From the NCBI RefSeq assembly GCF_947581915.1, contig NZ_CANPWG010000067.1, positions 62,001 to 126,000 on the forward strand: a DNA stretch of 64,000 nucleotides, in the 5' to 3' direction. Below, one piece after another: positions 27,483 to 33,607 of the stretch (position 1 is the first letter of the stretch; each line of letters opens with the position of its first letter). The notes under the pieces were generated by a model. That model saw only the letters and a list, made by a program, of their open reading frames with translations. It ran no database searches and had not been told where the DNA came from. A program made the translations under genes and the position numbers. The stretch comes from Candidatus Palauibacter scopulicola. GTDB lineage: Bacteria; Gemmatimonadota; Gemmatimonadetes; Palauibacterales; Palauibacteraceae.

Positions 27483-28469
27483 TTGCCGACGGTTCTTGAG
27501 ATTTGTGCGGGGGGCGGGGGTCAGGCGCTGGGGCTTGAGAACGCCGGTTTCGAGGCGGTGGGGTTGGTCGAGAACGACCACTACGCTTGCGCGACGCTCC
27601 GAAGGAACCGGCCGGCCTGGCCGGTTTTTGAAACCGATGTTCGGAGGCTCGACCCAGAAGGATTCCGAGGTGTGGACCTTGTTGCCGGGGGCGTACCCTG
27701 TCCTCCCTTTTCGGTCGCCGGGAAACAGCTCGGAGGCGAGGATGAACGGGATCTCTTCCCGGCTGCACTGCACCTGGTCGAACAACTCGACCCTGGTGGG
27801 GTTTTGCTCGAGAACGTGGCAGGCTTCGCTTCACGTCGCTTTATCGCGTACCGACGGGCCCTGATCTCTCGTTTGGACGGGCTGGGATACTGGGTGGATG
27901 CGAGCATCGTGAACGCCCGCGATTTCGGCGTACCGCAGTTGCGGCCGCGGTTCATTCTCGTGGCTGTGAAGAAGCACCTCGCACACTTCTTCGCGTGGCC
28001 CTCATCGACCACACCCGGCGCGTCCGTCGGTGAGGTACTCGTCGATCTGATGGCCTCACGAGGCTGGCCGGGAGCAGCCGAGTGGGCCGCGGGAGCAGAC
28101 GACATCGCGCCCACACTGGTTGGAGGCTCGAAGAAGCATGGCGGTGCGGACCTCGGACCGACCAGGGCTAGGGCCGCGTGGAAGCGACTTGGCGTCAACG
28201 GGCTATCACTTGCGGATGCCCCTCCGGGCCCCGACTTCCCCGTAGGGACGATGCCGCGGCTGACGGTCCGCATGGCGGCACGCATCCAAGGCTTCCCCGA
28301 CACATGGCGTTTCGAGGGAGGCAAGACCGCCGCTTACCGGCAAGTGGGCAACGCATTGCCACCACCTGTCGCCGAAGCCGTCGGTCGATCGCTCCGAGCG
28401 GCCCTGTTGCGGCAGGAACCTGACCTCAGCGCCGAAGAGCAGTTGGTACTTCGATACCAAACCGCATGA
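27483..28469 (+). CDS. DNA (cytosine-5) methyltransferase
   Basis: Three hundred and twenty-eight residues starting at TTG 27483 behind GGAGGAG. Ordered motifs of m5C methyltransferases are all present: I (LEICAGGGGQALGLE), IV with catalytic Cys (GGVPCPPFSVAGKQ), VI (LLENVAGF), VIII (PQLRPRFILVAV) and X (YRQVGNALPPPVA). The target-recognition region lies between about 180 and 265. Because the next gene is an NgoMIV relative, the likely target is GCCGGC or a related site; this is inference. The stop overlaps the endonuclease ATG by four bases. Confidence 0.94.
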   Translation: MPTVLEICAGGGGQALGLENAGFEAVGLVENDHYACATLRRNRPAWPVFETDVRRLDPEGFRGVDLVAGGVPCPPFSVAGKQLGGEDERDLFPAALHLVEQLDPGGVLLENVAGFASRRFIAYRRALISRLDGLGYWVDASIVNARDFGVPQLRPRFILVAVKKHLAHFFAWPSSTTPGASVGEVLVDLMASRGWPGAAEWAAGADDIAPTLVGGSKKHGGADLGPTRARAAWKRLGVNGLSLADAPPGPDFPVGTMPRLTVRMAARIQGFPDTWRFEGGKTAAYRQVGNALPPPVAEAVGRSLRAALLRQEPDLSAEEQLVLRYQTA

Positions 28470-29308
28470 CAAAGGAGATTCTTCATGCGGCCCGCCAAGG
28501 CCTGCACCGGCGGTTACAAGAAAAACTCTGGTCGCTGCAAGACGGGATAGCGAGCAATTCGGACAAGGACAGCCCGACAAGCGTCTCAATCGGGCGCACC
28601 TTGGCGGAGACGCTAGGCGTTCCTTCGGGAAAGCCTCGCCTCAGGGGATCGGCCGCAGGCGCCGAGTTCGAAAGGCAGACCGTTGATTTCCTTCGGGCTA
28701 CTTTTCCGGCCCTGCATCACCTTCGGCCGGGTCACTGGGAGATTGAGCCCGGCTCCGCCATCGCCAAGTTCGAGCAGTACTCCCACCTCGACGCTCTCAA
28801 GGAAGCGGCGGCCGGCAACGCCGCGCTTGCTGCGGTTCTGGGCAGTGATTACACGATCAAGCCCGACATCGTCATCGCCCGGGCGCCTGAGGAAGATGAC
28901 CGAATTAACCGAGAAGCCCCCTTCGTTGGAAACGACACCGCCGGACTCACCCCTCTCCGGAGACGGAACAACTCGCAACATCTCTTGCACGCCAGCGTCT
29001 CCTGCAAGTGGACGATCCGCAGCGACCGAACTCAAAACTCGCGGGCTGAGGCGTTGAATCTGGTCCGCAACCGGAAGGGTCGAGCACCTCACATCGCGGT
29101 CGTAACTGCCGAACCCTTGCCCAGTCGACTCGTTTCAATCGCCATCGGGACCGGCGATATCGACTGCACTTACCATGTAGCGCTTCACGAACTTCGCGAA
29201 GTCGTCGAAGCCTTGGAGTTGGACGACGCCCGGGAAACGCTCGACCTAATGGTCCACGGAAAGCGGCTTCGTGATGTGTCAGACTTGCCGCTTGACCTAG
29301 CCGTCTGA
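28466..29308 (+). CDS. NgoMIV-family type II restriction endonuclease
   Basis: Two hundred and eighty residues, close to NgoMIV (286). The family cuts GCCGGC as a tetramer. Recognisable elements are GAEFERQTVDFL, TIKPDIVIARAPEEDD with the catalytic Asp, the S-x-K core in SVSCKWTIRSDR, and QNSRAEALNLVRNRKG with the extra acidic residue, in the order and spacing of the family. ATG 28466 overlaps the methyltransferase stop (ATGA), so expression is coupled. Base composition is lower than the genome around it. Confidence 0.9.
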   Translation: MTKEILHAARQGLHRRLQEKLWSLQDGIASNSDKDSPTSVSIGRTLAETLGVPSGKPRLRGSAAGAEFERQTVDFLRATFPALHHLRPGHWEIEPGSAIAKFEQYSHLDALKEAAAGNAALAAVLGSDYTIKPDIVIARAPEEDDRINREAPFVGNDTAGLTPLRRRNNSQHLLHASVSCKWTIRSDRTQNSRAEALNLVRNRKGRAPHIAVVTAEPLPSRLVSIAIGTGDIDCTYHVALHELREVVEALELDDARETLDLMVHGKRLRDVSDLPLDLAV

Positions 29309-29317
29309 ACCGCTCTC

Positions 29318-29758
29318 GTGACGGAGTACAACCCCAAGTCCCCTGATGAAATCCACCGCAACATGTCCGCGATTCGAAGCACCGGCGGCAAGACGGAGGT
29401 CGCTCTCCGGTCGATCCTCCACCGACGCGGGCTCAGGTTCCGCAAAAACTACCCGAAGCTCCTGGGCCGACCGGACATCGTGTTCATCGGAGCTCGCGTC
29501 GCCGTGTTCATCGATGGCGATTACTGGCATGCGCGTGTTCTTCGCGAGCGGGGCCCCGAGGCTCTTGAAGCGCAACTCAAGACGTCGAATCAAGCGTACT
29601 GGATCGACAAGTTCACGAAGCGCGTTGTGCGCGACGACCATGTCACTGCCACGCTCCAAAACGAAGGCTGGACGGTGCTGCGGCTCTGGGAATCGGACGT
29701 TCGCGCCGACCTCGATCGTTCGGCGGATCTCATCTCCCACACCGTCCGCAGTTCATAA
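29318..29758 (+). CDS. vsr: Vsr-type mismatch endonuclease
   Basis: Very-short-patch repair nuclease that nicks T:G mismatches left by deamination of 5-methylcytosine. The 146-residue protein has MSAIRSTGGKTEVALRSILH, the catalytic Asp in LLGRPDIVFIGARVAVFIDG, WHAR, YWIDKFTKRVVRDDHVTATL and GWTVLRLWESDV. The zinc-binding Cys of the Escherichia coli enzyme's GCFWH segment is replaced by GDYWH. Start is GTG 29318, ten bases after the endonuclease stop; its place behind an m5C methyltransferase is the classical context. Convergent with the TIR-like gene. Confidence 0.9.
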   Translation: MTEYNPKSPDEIHRNMSAIRSTGGKTEVALRSILHRRGLRFRKNYPKLLGRPDIVFIGARVAVFIDGDYWHARVLRERGPEALEAQLKTSNQAYWIDKFTKRVVRDDHVTATLQNEGWTVLRLWESDVRADLDRSADLISHTVRSS

Positions 29759-29815: not shown

Positions 29816-30331
29816 CTACCTACTCCCTCCCCGTTCCTCCGCCGCCCTTTCCACCGCACGACTCAGGTCACGGTGCCTCCACGGTACGACCCGAATTGCC
29901 TTCTCCCCGATAACGGCAGGCATCCTCGCCGGCGGAGCCTTCCCCTGATACATGCCCACGACGCCCTTCCCTAGTCTCAGGCTCTCCCGCACCTCCCAGT
30001 CGACCCAACGACTCTCCGCCGTCTCACCCGAAAGAAACACGATCGTTACTGAACATTGCCTAATCCGCTCCCTGATTTTTCGCCGAATATACTCCGCTTC
30101 ACCGCTGTCGAAGGGCACCTTCACCGACCAATCTTTGAACTCCAGTTCGCTGTTCTCGTTCCTTGCTTGTCCTCTGAGGAGGTTCACCGAATCAAGATCG
30201 GTCGAGTTGAAGCTCAAGAACACGTTTCGCTTCTGCCCCTCACCATCCCCCCTCAGAATCCTCTTCGCCTCCCGTTCCAGCCGCCTCAGATCGCTAGGAT
30301 CGACTCCAGCGCTTCCACCACTTCCCCCCAT
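29816..30331 (-). CDS. TIR-like (DUF1863/ThsB-type) protein with Gly-rich N-terminus
   Basis: Last gene of the QueC/TGT/OGG/SLATT operon. ATG 30331 is fixed by GGGGAGGA ending seven bases upstream, inside the QueC 3' end; only two bases separate the QueC stop from it. The 171 residues begin MGGSGGSAG, then a charged helix (about 12-30) and a flavodoxin-like TIR-like domain: RNVFLSFNSTDLDSV (35-49), FKDWSVKVPF, IRRKIRERIRQCSVTIVFLS, and SRWVDWEVRESLRLGK with Glu113 where TIR NADases carry the catalytic Glu. ThsB proteins of Thoeris make a cyclic ADP-ribose signal from NAD on infection. Here it may produce the signal for the SLATT protein; NADase activity is inferred. Confidence 0.85.
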   Translation of the reverse strand: MGGSGGSAGVDPSDLRRLEREAKRILRGDGEGQKRNVFLSFNSTDLDSVNLLRGQARNENSELEFKDWSVKVPFDSGEAEYIRRKIRERIRQCSVTIVFLSGETAESRWVDWEVRESLRLGKGVVGMYQGKAPPARMPAVIGEKAIRVVPWRHRDLSRAVERAAEERGGSR

Positions 30332-30333
30332 TT

Positions 30334-30936
30334 CTAATCCTCCCCTTCTCTCTTGGCATCGGCAATTTCCCGGCACGCGATGCAGCCGCCGCACACCTCC
30401 TCCTCGCCCGCATGACACGAGTACGTTTTCGATACCCCCCTTTCCCTGGCCAACCTCAACACGTCTCGCTTTGAGCACCCTATTAGCGGCGCTAGCACCG
30501 ACACGCTTCTTCCCACAGACAGCCGAATGGCATCTTCTGCGCGGTTGACGAATTCCTCCGTCTGGTCATCAAACAGTCGTCGCCCCGGATCCAATAAACC
30601 GAGGGCAACCCCGTCTGCTCCGACCTCGACTGCATACGCCGCCCCCGCAACGAGCAACAAGAGATTTCGACCGGGCTGAAACGCATCTTCGTACACGTGC
30701 TGCTTGGGATCCGTTAAGCCGCTCGAGACGAGGCGACCGAAGTCACACAGATCGACCCGCTCTACCGTTGGCAGGCCAAATCGTGCGTGCACGTGCTGAC
30801 ACGCGAACCATTCCAACCTCGCGCTTCTTTGCCCATAGTTCACGAATAACGGGAACAGTTTGATTCCCTCTTCTTGAGCCAGAAGACTCATTACGGTCGA
30901 GTCGATTCCACCTGACACCAAGGTTACTATCGCCAT
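30334..30936 (-). CDS. QueC-like 7-cyano-7-deazaguanine synthase homologue
   Basis: Two hundred residues. PP-loop SGGIDST (8-14) binds ATP; VNYGQRSARLEW, PGRNLLLLVAGAAYA and the four zinc cysteines Cys174, 182, 185 and 188 follow as in QueC, which turns 7-carboxy-7-deazaguanine into preQ0. No queD, queE or folE genes are nearby, so it would need precursor from elsewhere, or acts on another target. It overlaps the OGG-like stop by ten bases. QueC-like genes are a marker of type IV CBASS (Cap9) and of the Qat system. As I recall, some defence QueC homologues attach the deazaguanine to protein N-termini; this has not been checked here. Confidence 0.92.
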   Translation of the reverse strand: MAIVTLVSGGIDSTVMSLLAQEEGIKLFPLFVNYGQRSARLEWFACQHVHARFGLPTVERVDLCDFGRLVSSGLTDPKQHVYEDAFQPGRNLLLLVAGAAYAVEVGADGVALGLLDPGRRLFDDQTEEFVNRAEDAIRLSVGRSVSVLAPLIGCSKRDVLRLARERGVSKTYSCHAGEEEVCGGCIACREIADAKREGED

Positions 30937-31616
30937 AGTGTCGTTTCCCTTTTTGCAGTTCGCACAACCAGCCAGACGGCCATGTCGAATGCCGCCGGCG
31001 AATATCCTCGCTTGTCAGCATACGCCATGAACAACTCCTCAAGTCCCTCGTATCGTGACAGCGTGTTTATCGTCCTGACACCCGACTCAATAATACCGAT
31101 CCAGTGCAAGTACGTGAGGACATGTACGTCTAGTACGGCAAGTCGCCTTGCAAAGCCGATGGTTCTCAAGTACAAGCTTGCCTGCTTCGGCCCTATGCCA
31201 GGTATCTCCGCCGCAAACGTCCGCCGTACGTCATCTTCCCCATCACCGTCACCCAGGAGGCCTCGGATAGACCCCCCATCATCATACACACGTTCCGCGG
31301 CTCCGCGAATGTGACCTGCCGTTCTCCGAAAAAACCTGTATCCTCTTCCCAGCGACAGCAGTGTCGCGTGTTCGGGTTCGTCGAGTCCACCTCGCCACCG
31401 GTCGGCCGACAGGAGCCCAGCTCGACCCAGTCGTCCCAGCGCAGCGTGACTCACCTCCCAGTGAACGCGACTCCCCAAAATACACCAGACAAGTTCCCGC
31501 CATAGATCATCCTCGCTATGGCCCTCCCATACCGGCACTGGTCGAATGTCGAGTTCGTGGTAAACAACTCGTATCGCCTCGTCGATCCGCGACAGCTCCC
31601 TTCCGGCCTTCCTCAT
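30927..31616 (-). CDS. OGG-like HhH-GPD DNA glycosylase/lyase homologue
   Basis: From ATG 31616 (ATGA overlap with the TGT-like stop; GGGGGA upstream) the protein has 229 residues. ELVWCILGSRVHWEV is the family's helical opening, and the helix-hairpin-helix EIPGIGPKQASLYLR (137-151) with Lys144 plus VLDVHVL with Asp163 are the catalytic Lys/Asp pair of bifunctional glycosylases. The core is therefore intact. In housekeeping context such enzymes remove 8-oxoguanine; between a TGT-like and a QueC-like gene it more likely handles a 7-deazaguanine-type base or a base-modified adduct. It corresponds to the OGG component of type IV CBASS. Confidence 0.88.
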   Translation of the reverse strand: MRKAGRELSRIDEAIRVVYHELDIRPVPVWEGHSEDDLWRELVWCILGSRVHWEVSHAALGRLGRAGLLSADRWRGGLDEPEHATLLSLGRGYRFFRRTAGHIRGAAERVYDDGGSIRGLLGDGDGEDDVRRTFAAEIPGIGPKQASLYLRTIGFARRLAVLDVHVLTYLHWIGIIESGVRTINTLSRYEGLEELFMAYADKRGYSPAAFDMAVWLVVRTAKRETTLWR

Positions 31617-32599
31617 TGCGCCGTGTCCCCCTTCTGGCACGCCTCGAGCAATCGGGTCAGGACCGCCCCTCCGACGTGTTCCCCAAGGAGCGCGTCTAGA
31701 GTTCCGGCACTCCGGGCAACCCGTAACCGCCTCATGAACTGGTCGTAAAATCGCAGATTATAAAATAGCGGGTGAATTGCCCACGGCCACTCCGGCCCTG
31801 AATCGACCGAACTGCCGTCCTGAAGCAAGTCCCAATGTTCGAACGGGAGCACTCTGCCGGTCTCGTGATCAATCACTTGCCGACACCACTCGAGACCGTC
31901 GAAACTGTCCGCTCCTGCTAAGCTGTACGTGATGAGGGACACCGGATGTCCCGTACCCAGGATATGTAGAGGGACATACGCCGGCAGCTCATTCAGAGAC
32001 AACCGAATGCGCCGTATCATCCCCGCTCGATCGATCAGGCCACGACCGAGCCTTCGTTCGGGCACTGCCAGCATCATGGGTTCGATCGCCTGCGCTGTAA
32101 GGTGCACCGCCTCCCGGATAACTGACGGTCGACCATGAACGATTGGAATGACGGTCCCATTTCCGCACTCTTGTGCGCGCACTACACTTTCTTCAACGGC
32201 CTCCGCAATTGCCTGAGCTGTCTCGGGCGGGTGGTGGCTATCGTACACAAACCTATAGTCGTGCGGCACCTCGGAGACAACTTCATCGAACGCCGACGCG
32301 TCCCACTCCGCGTCCGTCCGCCACTGACCCTCATAGGTTCCGCTGTCCAAAAAGACACCGCCGCCGTTCGTCCGCTGCCGTTGGAGCAACTGTACAACTT
32401 GGCGCCGCACTCCATCGGTACACTGCGCCACATCAAATGCGGAGAGCAGGAACGGCCCCCCTCGCCCGACCAGCAACGTCAGACACTCCAACATCGAAGC
32501 CTTTGTCCTTATGCTTGACACTGACGGAACGAAGTTCGGAAGGGCCACTGACCATCCCGCAATCGGCAACCCGTCAGCCGCCTCTTGTATCAAGTCCAT
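31613..32599 (-). CDS. TGT/DpdA-like guanine transglycosylase homologue
   Basis: The 328-residue protein keeps the TIM-barrel landmarks of tRNA-guanine transglycosylases: GGVFLDSGTYEGQW with Asp85 (first catalytic Asp), VHGRPS, LHILGTGHPVSLI (212-223), AGADSFDGLEW with Asp231/Asp234 in the nucleophile loop, and YNLRFYDQFMRRLR near the C-terminus. The CxCxxC zinc site of classical TGT is missing; scattered cysteines do not make one. Zinc-less relatives occur as DpdA and in type IV CBASS (Cap10). It may swap a base in nucleic acid or transfer a deazaguanine to another acceptor. A GGGAGGGG lies ten bases before ATG 32599. Confidence 0.87.
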   Translation of the reverse strand: MDLIQEAADGLPIAGWSVALPNFVPSVSSIRTKASMLECLTLLVGRGGPFLLSAFDVAQCTDGVRRQVVQLLQRQRTNGGGVFLDSGTYEGQWRTDAEWDASAFDEVVSEVPHDYRFVYDSHHPPETAQAIAEAVEESVVRAQECGNGTVIPIVHGRPSVIREAVHLTAQAIEPMMLAVPERRLGRGLIDRAGMIRRIRLSLNELPAYVPLHILGTGHPVSLITYSLAGADSFDGLEWCRQVIDHETGRVLPFEHWDLLQDGSSVDSGPEWPWAIHPLFYNLRFYDQFMRRLRVARSAGTLDALLGEHVGGAVLTRLLEACQKGDTAQ

Positions 32600-32632: not shown

Positions 32633-33607
32633 CTACGCCAACTCGTCCGTTGACTTCAAATCGGCCTCCGGTTGTCTAGCTCTTCCTGCAGATCGAGCAT
32701 GCCAAAGTGTATGTTCCCGTGAAATCGCATTTTCGATCTGACGGACTAGCCCCGCCAGCCCCTCCTCGCGGTCGATTTCGGCCTCCAGGGCTTCGAGATC
32801 TAGTAGTTCCTGTGCTGTGATCGAGTAAGTATACGCCAACTCACTGTAGCGGCGCATACGCGTCCACGCCACTGCAGATGCGGCGGCGGTTGTCAAAAAC
32901 GGTATCAAGTTTAGGGTTATGGTTGGAGTGATTGCTATTGCCACGCCACAGCCAATAGCGGCAATCTGGAGGAATATGGCACCAATCAGCCAGCGCTTTT
33001 GCAGCGTCGCGTTGCGAGTCGCCTTTCGCGCATACCACACCCTTTGATTCTGCAGGCGCTGCTCTCGATACACCTGTCGTCTCTGCTCCCAAGGAGCCTG
33101 CCGCAGACGCATCATGGAGTCGCTTATCATCTGATCGCTGTCGGAGATGCTAGGTGTGAGGCGGTCTAAGACCGCAGGGTTCGAGTGACGTATTGTGCGA
33201 AGGCAGGCGATGAAGGCCTCGACTAGGCTCTGGTCGTTGGCGAAGGGAGGCGACTTCGTAACGAACTGCCAGCTGGCGGTTTTTACGGATTCGGCGATCA
33301 CGCGGCACTGAAACCAGGCAAGTTCATCCTTACGGAGATAGGCGATCCACGTGAGCAGGACGCCTATCCCGAGTGCCAACGTGGACAAGACGTGCAACCA
33401 GCGACCGATTGTCGAGTCAACGACGGCGGACGTGGCGGCCGCGGCGCTACCAAGAACCAAGCACGTGATATGGTACTTTTGGAACGTGAAGAAGAGGCGC
33501 TGAGCTGCGCCTGCCGCGCTGTCAGCTTGAGTATACAGGGCGGGCAGATCGAGATCGGCGCGGGGCGACGCTGTGGAAGCGGGCGAGGGCGTGTCCTTAC
33601 CGGACAT
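32633..33607 (-). CDS. Tandem SLATT (DUF4231-like) membrane effector
   Basis: First gene of the defence operon. ATG 33607 follows AAGGAG by six bases. The 324 residues hold two units each with a pair of membrane helices: about 45-63 with 70-91, then ELAWFQCRVIAESVKTASWQF, a SLATT signature; and about 206-225 with 230-248, then a long helix (LLDLEALEAEIDREEG) and AISREHTLWHARS, the usual SLATT end. SLATT proteins are predicted pore-forming effectors coupled to nucleotide-signal generators in defence operons. It begins 15 bases behind the MFS stop, so the operon promoter must lie within or before the MFS gene. Confidence 0.88.
   Translation of the reverse strand: MSGKDTPSPASTASPRADLDLPALYTQADSAAGAAQRLFFTFQKYHITCLVLGSAAAATSAVVDSTIGRWLHVLSTLALGIGVLLTWIAYLRKDELAWFQCRVIAESVKTASWQFVTKSPPFANDQSLVEAFIACLRTIRHSNPAVLDRLTPSISDSDQMISDSMMRLRQAPWEQRRQVYREQRLQNQRVWYARKATRNATLQKRWLIGAIFLQIAAIGCGVAIAITPTITLNLIPFLTTAAASAVAWTRMRRYSELAYTYSITAQELLDLEALEAEIDREEGLAGLVRQIENAISREHTLWHARSAGRARQPEADLKSTDELA

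Follow-up and report, generated by a model that had tools for sequence, protein, structure and literature searches.

A TIR Protein with an Invariant Met-Gly-Gly Start as the Probable Substrate of a QueC-Like Enzyme in an Operon Resembling Type IV CBASS

A stretch of 64,000 nucleotides from Candidatus Palauibacter scopulicola (contig NZ_CANPWG010000067.1, positions 62,001 to 126,000; referred to as the window, within which positions are given) includes five closely packed genes on the minus strand, in the order SLATT, TGT, OGG, QueC-like, TIR. The last one, the TIR gene (29816–30331), codes for a 171-amino acid protein of the ThsB family (Pfam ThsB_TIR, PF08937, 5.3e-22; PADLOC ThsB, 7e-15), proposed here to be a signal-making enzyme and, at the same time, the substrate of a modification. 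Its ATG occupies positions 30331–30329, and direct reading of codons 1 to 9 (30331–30305) gave MGGSGGSAG, where Gly2 is the proposed 7-deazaguanine acceptor after removal of the methionine. Two nucleotides separate this ATG from the TAG stop codon of the QueC-like gene (30336–30334), and a Shine-Dalgarno-like GGGGAGG (30345–30339) is found 7 nt upstream of the ATG, within the QueC-like reading frame. The preliminary description of this DNA had already fixed the TIR start by a ribosome site inside the QueC gene, with two bases between the genes, and the direct reading agreed with it. Longer TIR starts at GTG codons located upstream in the QueC frame were set aside, because the ATG at 30331 has a ribosome site and is the nearest to the QueC stop.

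The predicted structure of the TIR protein consists of a disordered segment at residues 1–9 (predicted local distance difference test score below 50), a helix at residues 12–26 and then the TIR fold, an organization that matches the MGGSGGSAG start ahead of a helix put forward in the preliminary description. The best solved neighbours of the predicted fold include the Bacillus cereus TIR 8fz9 and ThsB 6lhy. Glu113, which is part of a WVxWE motif, occupies the position of the TIR catalytic glutamate and is invariant among the aligned relatives.

The gene that precedes the TIR gene (30334–30936, minus strand, as are all genes of the operon) codes for a QueC-like, or Cap9-like, ATP-dependent enzyme of 200 amino acids that is proposed to join a base to the TIR N-terminus. 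It was matched by Pfam QueC (6.6e-33), the PADLOC QueC model PDLC00911 (3e-23) and, in the PDB, the Cap9 structure 9nto (2e-9). Upstream of it are the genes for an OGG-type helix-hairpin-helix protein (Cap11-like, 30927–31616; Pfam Ogg-HhH, 9.3e-21) and a TGT-family protein (Cap10-like, 31613–32599; PADLOC TGT, 6.9e-21), the latter being the proposed reader of the modified N-terminus. The ATG of the OGG gene (31616–31614) overlaps the TGT stop codon as ATGA, and an alternative open GTG start is found at 31640. The first gene of the operon (32633–33607) specifies a membrane protein with SLATT_1 (2.3e-27) and SLATT_3 (9e-24) Pfam domains, which could act as a pore-type effector. A promoter scan produced sites that were no better than chance. 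Judged by sequence resemblance, the gene set is the ancillary set of the type IV cyclic oligonucleotide-based antiphage signaling system (CBASS), i.e., Cap9-, Cap10- and Cap11-like genes, with a TIR in the place of the CD-NTase.

In type IV CBASS, the N-terminal glycine of the CD-NTase is joined by Cap9 to 7-carboxy-7-deazaguanine, and the N-terminus tagged in this way is bound by Cap10; defence requires both proteins (PMC11996544). The substrate motif of the CD-NTase is MGGS, in which removal of the methionine exposes Gly2, and an essential MGTS is found in QatB of the Qat system (PMC13279940). Among the CBASS CD-NTases compared in this work, that of a Pseudanabaena plasmid (L008) starts with MGGSGGGFF and that of a Bacteroidota sample genome (L172) with MGGGGGGGGY, and in the solved CdnD structure the chain can be aligned at its initial GGS.

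The MGG start of the TIR protein is invariant among its relatives. A first comparison of six TIRs, those from the window, rhizobial plasmids and a same-class relative, showed that all six begin with M-G-G. A TIR profile run against 84,980 species led to 55 loci, and a mechanical rule, by which the start is the start codon nearest the QueC stop, was applied to 60 QueC-adjacent TIRs, a set that includes plasmid and other genome loci. All 60 begin with MGG, and so do the TIRs of L014 and L015, which were read by eye, for a total of 62 out of 62 readable proteins, among which are some near-copies; clustering reduces them to about 42 groups at 90% identity and to 14 groups at 70%. One TIR with a broken frame (L065) was excluded from the count. 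When the start was chosen by the longest Shine-Dalgarno match, MGG was found in 52 of the 60, and seven of the eight misses were MMGG, one codon earlier. All four GGN codons are used at position 2 (GGC, 26; GGT, 16; GGA, 15; GGG, 3), and therefore selection acts on the residue rather than on the DNA. Gly2 and Gly3 are invariant while positions 4 to 8 vary (G, S, T, N, D, Y and others). The conservation of a second-residue glycine among TIR partners of QueC operons, which the preliminary description had proposed as a check, thus holds across about ten phyla.

TIRs of the ThsB_TIR family with no QueC neighbour, taken from 298 same-phylum genomes, served as controls under a permissive rule by which any in-frame start counts. 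Only one of 20 has a possible MGG, deep within a 519-amino acid frame, which leaves no credible case among the 20, although these TIRs are more distant and the comparison is not phylogenetically matched. The control proteins begin right at the TIR domain. Under the same permissive rule none of the QueC, OGG, TGT, SLATT and TPR-S genes in the same loci has an MGG start, and 3 of 37 PfkB genes do. The tail could be thought of as a mere flexible spacer, or as a recognition peptide that would dock, unmodified, into QueC or TGT, and its low complexity and predicted disorder would suit such roles. Nonetheless, a spacer has no need for invariant glycines at positions 2 and 3 while positions 4 to 8 vary, QueC retains its catalytic residues in all 60 proteins compared, and modification at this motif has been proven in type IV CBASS (PMC13279940, PMC11996544). 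A spacer or docking role is, then, improbable. The invariant MGG and the type IV CBASS gene set support the proposal of the preliminary description that the N-terminal glycine of the TIR protein is the substrate of the QueC-like enzyme, and we consider very probable, from the sequences compared, that it would be modified in this way.

A separate question is which group would be attached. The ATP loop SGGxDS, the RN motif, the nucleobase aspartate (D124) and the four zinc cysteines are invariant in all 60 TIR-type QueCs, and YGQ is nearly so (Y in 57). Three observations weigh against a simple equivalence with the CBASS reaction. The first is the nucleobase motif, which is FxDQ in 60 of 60 TIR-type QueCs, with F122, D124 and Q125 fixed, versus the YxDC kept by CBASS Cap9 and canonical QueC (FDDQ in the window protein versus the canonical YPDC); therefore, the base or the reaction may differ. 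The second is the tree, in which TIR-type QueCs, CBASS Cap9 and canonical QueC form three well-supported groups with no supported branching order among them. The third is that no QueD and no convincing QueE were found in the host genome, the same being true for most of its genus, and therefore the host may not make the precursor itself. These observations would fit a QueC-like enzyme that modifies the glycine tail with a group different from the Cap9 product. On the other hand, the aspartate and an aromatic ring are retained together with the motifs listed above, QueD is present in 22 of 26 genomes that carry the operon, and the E. coli QueC mutant Y131F is partly active (PMC13329287). The change to FxDQ therefore need not prevent the enzyme from using the base that Cap9 uses, although its product cannot be taken for granted. 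A different group is an unlikely though serious alternative, and it is reasonably probable that the group attached to Gly2 of the TIR protein is exactly that attached by Cap9. The idea that TIR-type QueCs are simply Cap9 proteins was rejected, since they form a clade of their own outside Cap9; because of this separate clade and the motif change the enzyme is named Cap9-like, not Cap9. Canonical QueC and TGT are retained in the host (contig C16, locus L099) and in most genomes of the genus, which lack QueD and QueE, while G013 has the full cluster. The retention of QueC and TGT where QueD and QueE are missing suggests that these bacteria salvage a 7-deazaguanine precursor for which QueC is still required.

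The neighbours of the TIR gene are nearly constant. Of the 55 loci, 53 have QueC and OGG next to the TIR and 52 have TGT, so that TGT, OGG, QueC and TIR constitute the fixed core; the exceptions are two short or cut contigs (L060 and L066) and a locus that lacks only the TGT end (L053). None of the 55 loci, and likewise not the operon in the window, has a CD-NTase gene. The accessory genes are common but not universal: TPR-S in 39 loci, a PfkB-type gene in 31, a second TIR in 30 and SLATT in 26. A compact form with SLATT first is shared by the operon in the window, L014 and L015. An additional TIR domain is fused to the N-terminus of the TGT in 43 of the 55 loci, an architecture also seen in the Agrobacterium/Rhizobium operons L004 (where the domain is recognized as Pfam TIR_2), L005, L006 and L007 and in L010. 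It would place a second TIR on the proposed reader and suggests that reader and substrate may meet through TIR contacts. The loci are spread over about ten phyla (Pseudomonadota, Nitrospirota, Bacillota, Bacteroidota, Gemmatimonadota, Acidobacteriota, Desulfuromonadales, Poribacteria, Paceibacterota and Micrarchaeota), with the proviso that several come from metagenome bins and individual phylum labels may be wrong. Rhizobial plasmids carry the identical arrangement. A search of viral contigs and phage records found no relatives of the TGT or the TIR, and hence no phage-borne version. On a 4.2-kb contig where no QueC is seen, a divergent TIR that starts with MGGG has a weak TGT-like gene on one side and a gene for an 8xMP membrane protein on the other (L066:1260-3050); this may be a distant variant of the system.

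In a further explanation, the QueC-like enzyme would work on nucleic acid or on a free base, as in the queuosine and 2′-deoxy-7-amido-7-deazaguanosine pathways, the TIR being an ordinary Thoeris gene that is a neighbour by chance. The resemblance of the TGT and OGG neighbours to base-handling enzymes agrees with this explanation, and the QueC-like protein is about equally near canonical QueC and Cap9 (9nto) in both sequence and fold matches. However, its score of 111.7 bits is below the 150.3 cut-off of the NCBI canonical QueC equivalog, and the genome has a canonical QueC and TGT of its own. The order TGT-OGG-QueC-TIR, kept in 53 loci across about ten phyla, also argues against a chance association. 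Furthermore, a PDB search with the TGT-family protein alone produced Cap10 of type IV CBASS as the sole credible relative (9ntn, 4.7e-7), and no tRNA-type TGT was found in that search, where a sugar-kinase match at 0.06 was not credible. When a small profile with a single CBASS sequence among its members was used, Cap10 was matched at 3e-32 and the tRNA-type enzymes at 3e-4 or worse. TIR-type TGTs and CBASS Cap10 have DSGxYE, FDGLxW and other residues in common, and the canonical CxCxxC zinc motif is missing in all TIR-type TGTs examined. Since an activity on nucleic acid or free base also leaves MGG unexplained, we regard it as very improbable.

Another protein of the cell could be the true substrate, and the obvious candidate is a CD-NTase coded for elsewhere in the host. 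The host genome includes one SMODS CD-NTase, located on another contig (L173:5143-6697, contig C49) and followed by a 2TM effector. The only in-frame start ahead of its domain reads MGLAAW, which would also expose a glycine. However, this start is not an MGG tail, no QueC or TGT genes lie alongside, and a CD-NTase substrate would not account for a TIR tail that is conserved in species whose locus has no CD-NTase. This locus is a separate minimal two-gene CBASS, and the QueC-like enzyme is not likely to act on its CD-NTase; taken over all cell proteins, a substrate other than the TIR is the least probable of the alternatives, with hardly any weight.

With the TIR protein as the substrate, the operon can be described as a series of hypothetical steps. 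Methionine aminopeptidase strips Met1 from proteins that begin with M-G. The TIR protein would lose its Met1 in this way, exposing Gly2. The QueC-like enzyme would then activate 7-carboxy-7-deazaguanine with ATP and couple it to the alpha-amino group of Gly2, in the way that Cap9 modifies CdnD; this step is proposed because of the homology to QueC and Cap9 and the invariant MGG. The TGT-family protein, like Cap10, would bind the tagged tail and keep the TIR in a regulated complex. Upon infection, the TIR could produce a signal derived from nicotinamide adenine dinucleotide, as suggested by its ThsB family and the conserved glutamate. Finally, the SLATT membrane protein would open in response to this signal, with death or growth arrest of the infected cell as the outcome. 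Taken together, the operon looks like a five-gene hybrid in which a type IV CBASS N-terminal deazaguanylation module serves a Thoeris-type TIR, with the CD-NTase absent and a presumed anti-phage role.

Convergent to the operon, on the plus strand (27483–29758), three genes, for a C5 cytosine methyltransferase, a restriction-enzyme-like protein and a Vsr-like endonuclease, were identified by eye. Their presence next to the operon suggests a small defence island, as far as identities read by eye can indicate.

Type IV CBASS is among the closest known systems. It and the operon both have Cap9-, Cap10- and Cap11-type genes together, an MGG[S/G] start on the adjacent signal enzyme and an adjoining SLATT-type membrane protein. 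The order in the CBASS loci L008, L171 and L172 is QueC, TGT, CD-NTase and then the SLATT-type gene, versus TGT, OGG, QueC, TIR in the loci described here. A type IV CBASS CD-NTase in one of these loci (L171:7537-8505) has no evident MGG and a likely start of MASSKD, an apparent exception to the CBASS glycine rule. The TIR loci differ in that a ThsB-type TIR replaces the CD-NTase, the QueC belongs to a separate clade with FxDQ for YxDC, and the TGT is in most cases fused to a TIR domain. The operon would work like the tagging of type IV CBASS, but since it lacks the CD-NTase that defines that system, we do not count it among the members.

The likeness to Thoeris resides in the TIR, which matches the ThsB_TIR and PADLOC ThsB models and the ThsB fold. 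Unlike Thoeris, the operon adds QueC, TGT and OGG, and its TIR has an MGG extension that is absent from ordinary ThsB_TIR-family members. Pfam and PADLOC recognized no ThsA effector (SIR2-SLOG or TM-macro) among the operon proteins, and SLATT is found instead. In qatABCD a QueC-family enzyme also adjoins a protein with an unstructured N-terminus that has an essential glycine motif (PMC13279940). However, QatC is larger and has lost the Tyr and Asp nucleobase residues, whereas the QueC-like protein has 200 amino acids and keeps Asp124, and none of the partners QatA, QatB and QatD was found among the operon proteins by Pfam or PADLOC. The PfkB-type gene present in 31 of the 55 TIR loci recalls the PfkB-linked QueC cluster 4 of Libby et al. 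2026 (PMC13329287), but the motifs of that cluster are YGQ(x)6E and CH(x)5CxxCxGCxK versus YGQ(x)5E and CH(x)6CGxCxxC here. For cluster 4 the same study proposed purine salvage, and TIR is not mentioned (PMC13329287).

A 2023 review assigned the QueC domain only to qatABCD and type IV CBASS, and neither TIR nor Thoeris is mentioned in the QueC-family papers examined. No description of this operon, or of Thoeris with QueC or SLATT, was found in the open-access literature searched, a scope that does not extend to the full text of the deazaguanylation paper. The hypothesis predicts a specific residue, enzyme and mass shift, and the operon occurs in cultured Pseudomonas and Rhizobium relatives, from which it can be cloned. 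It would also supply an independent set of partners for asking what the tag and its reader are for, a question shared with type IV CBASS. We lean, by a little over an even chance, toward the view that tagging of the N-terminus with a nucleobase serves generally as a switch that licenses immune enzymes of nucleotide signalling, in which one QueC/TGT/OGG module is wired through an MGG tail to two unrelated folds, CD-NTases and TIRs, the TIR branch having its own base chemistry (FxDQ) and TIR-fused readers. N-terminal deazaguanylation has been demonstrated in type IV CBASS and proposed in Qat; if the modification takes place as proposed, this operon would be the third system and would join CBASS ancillary chemistry and Thoeris TIR signalling, which have been studied separately.
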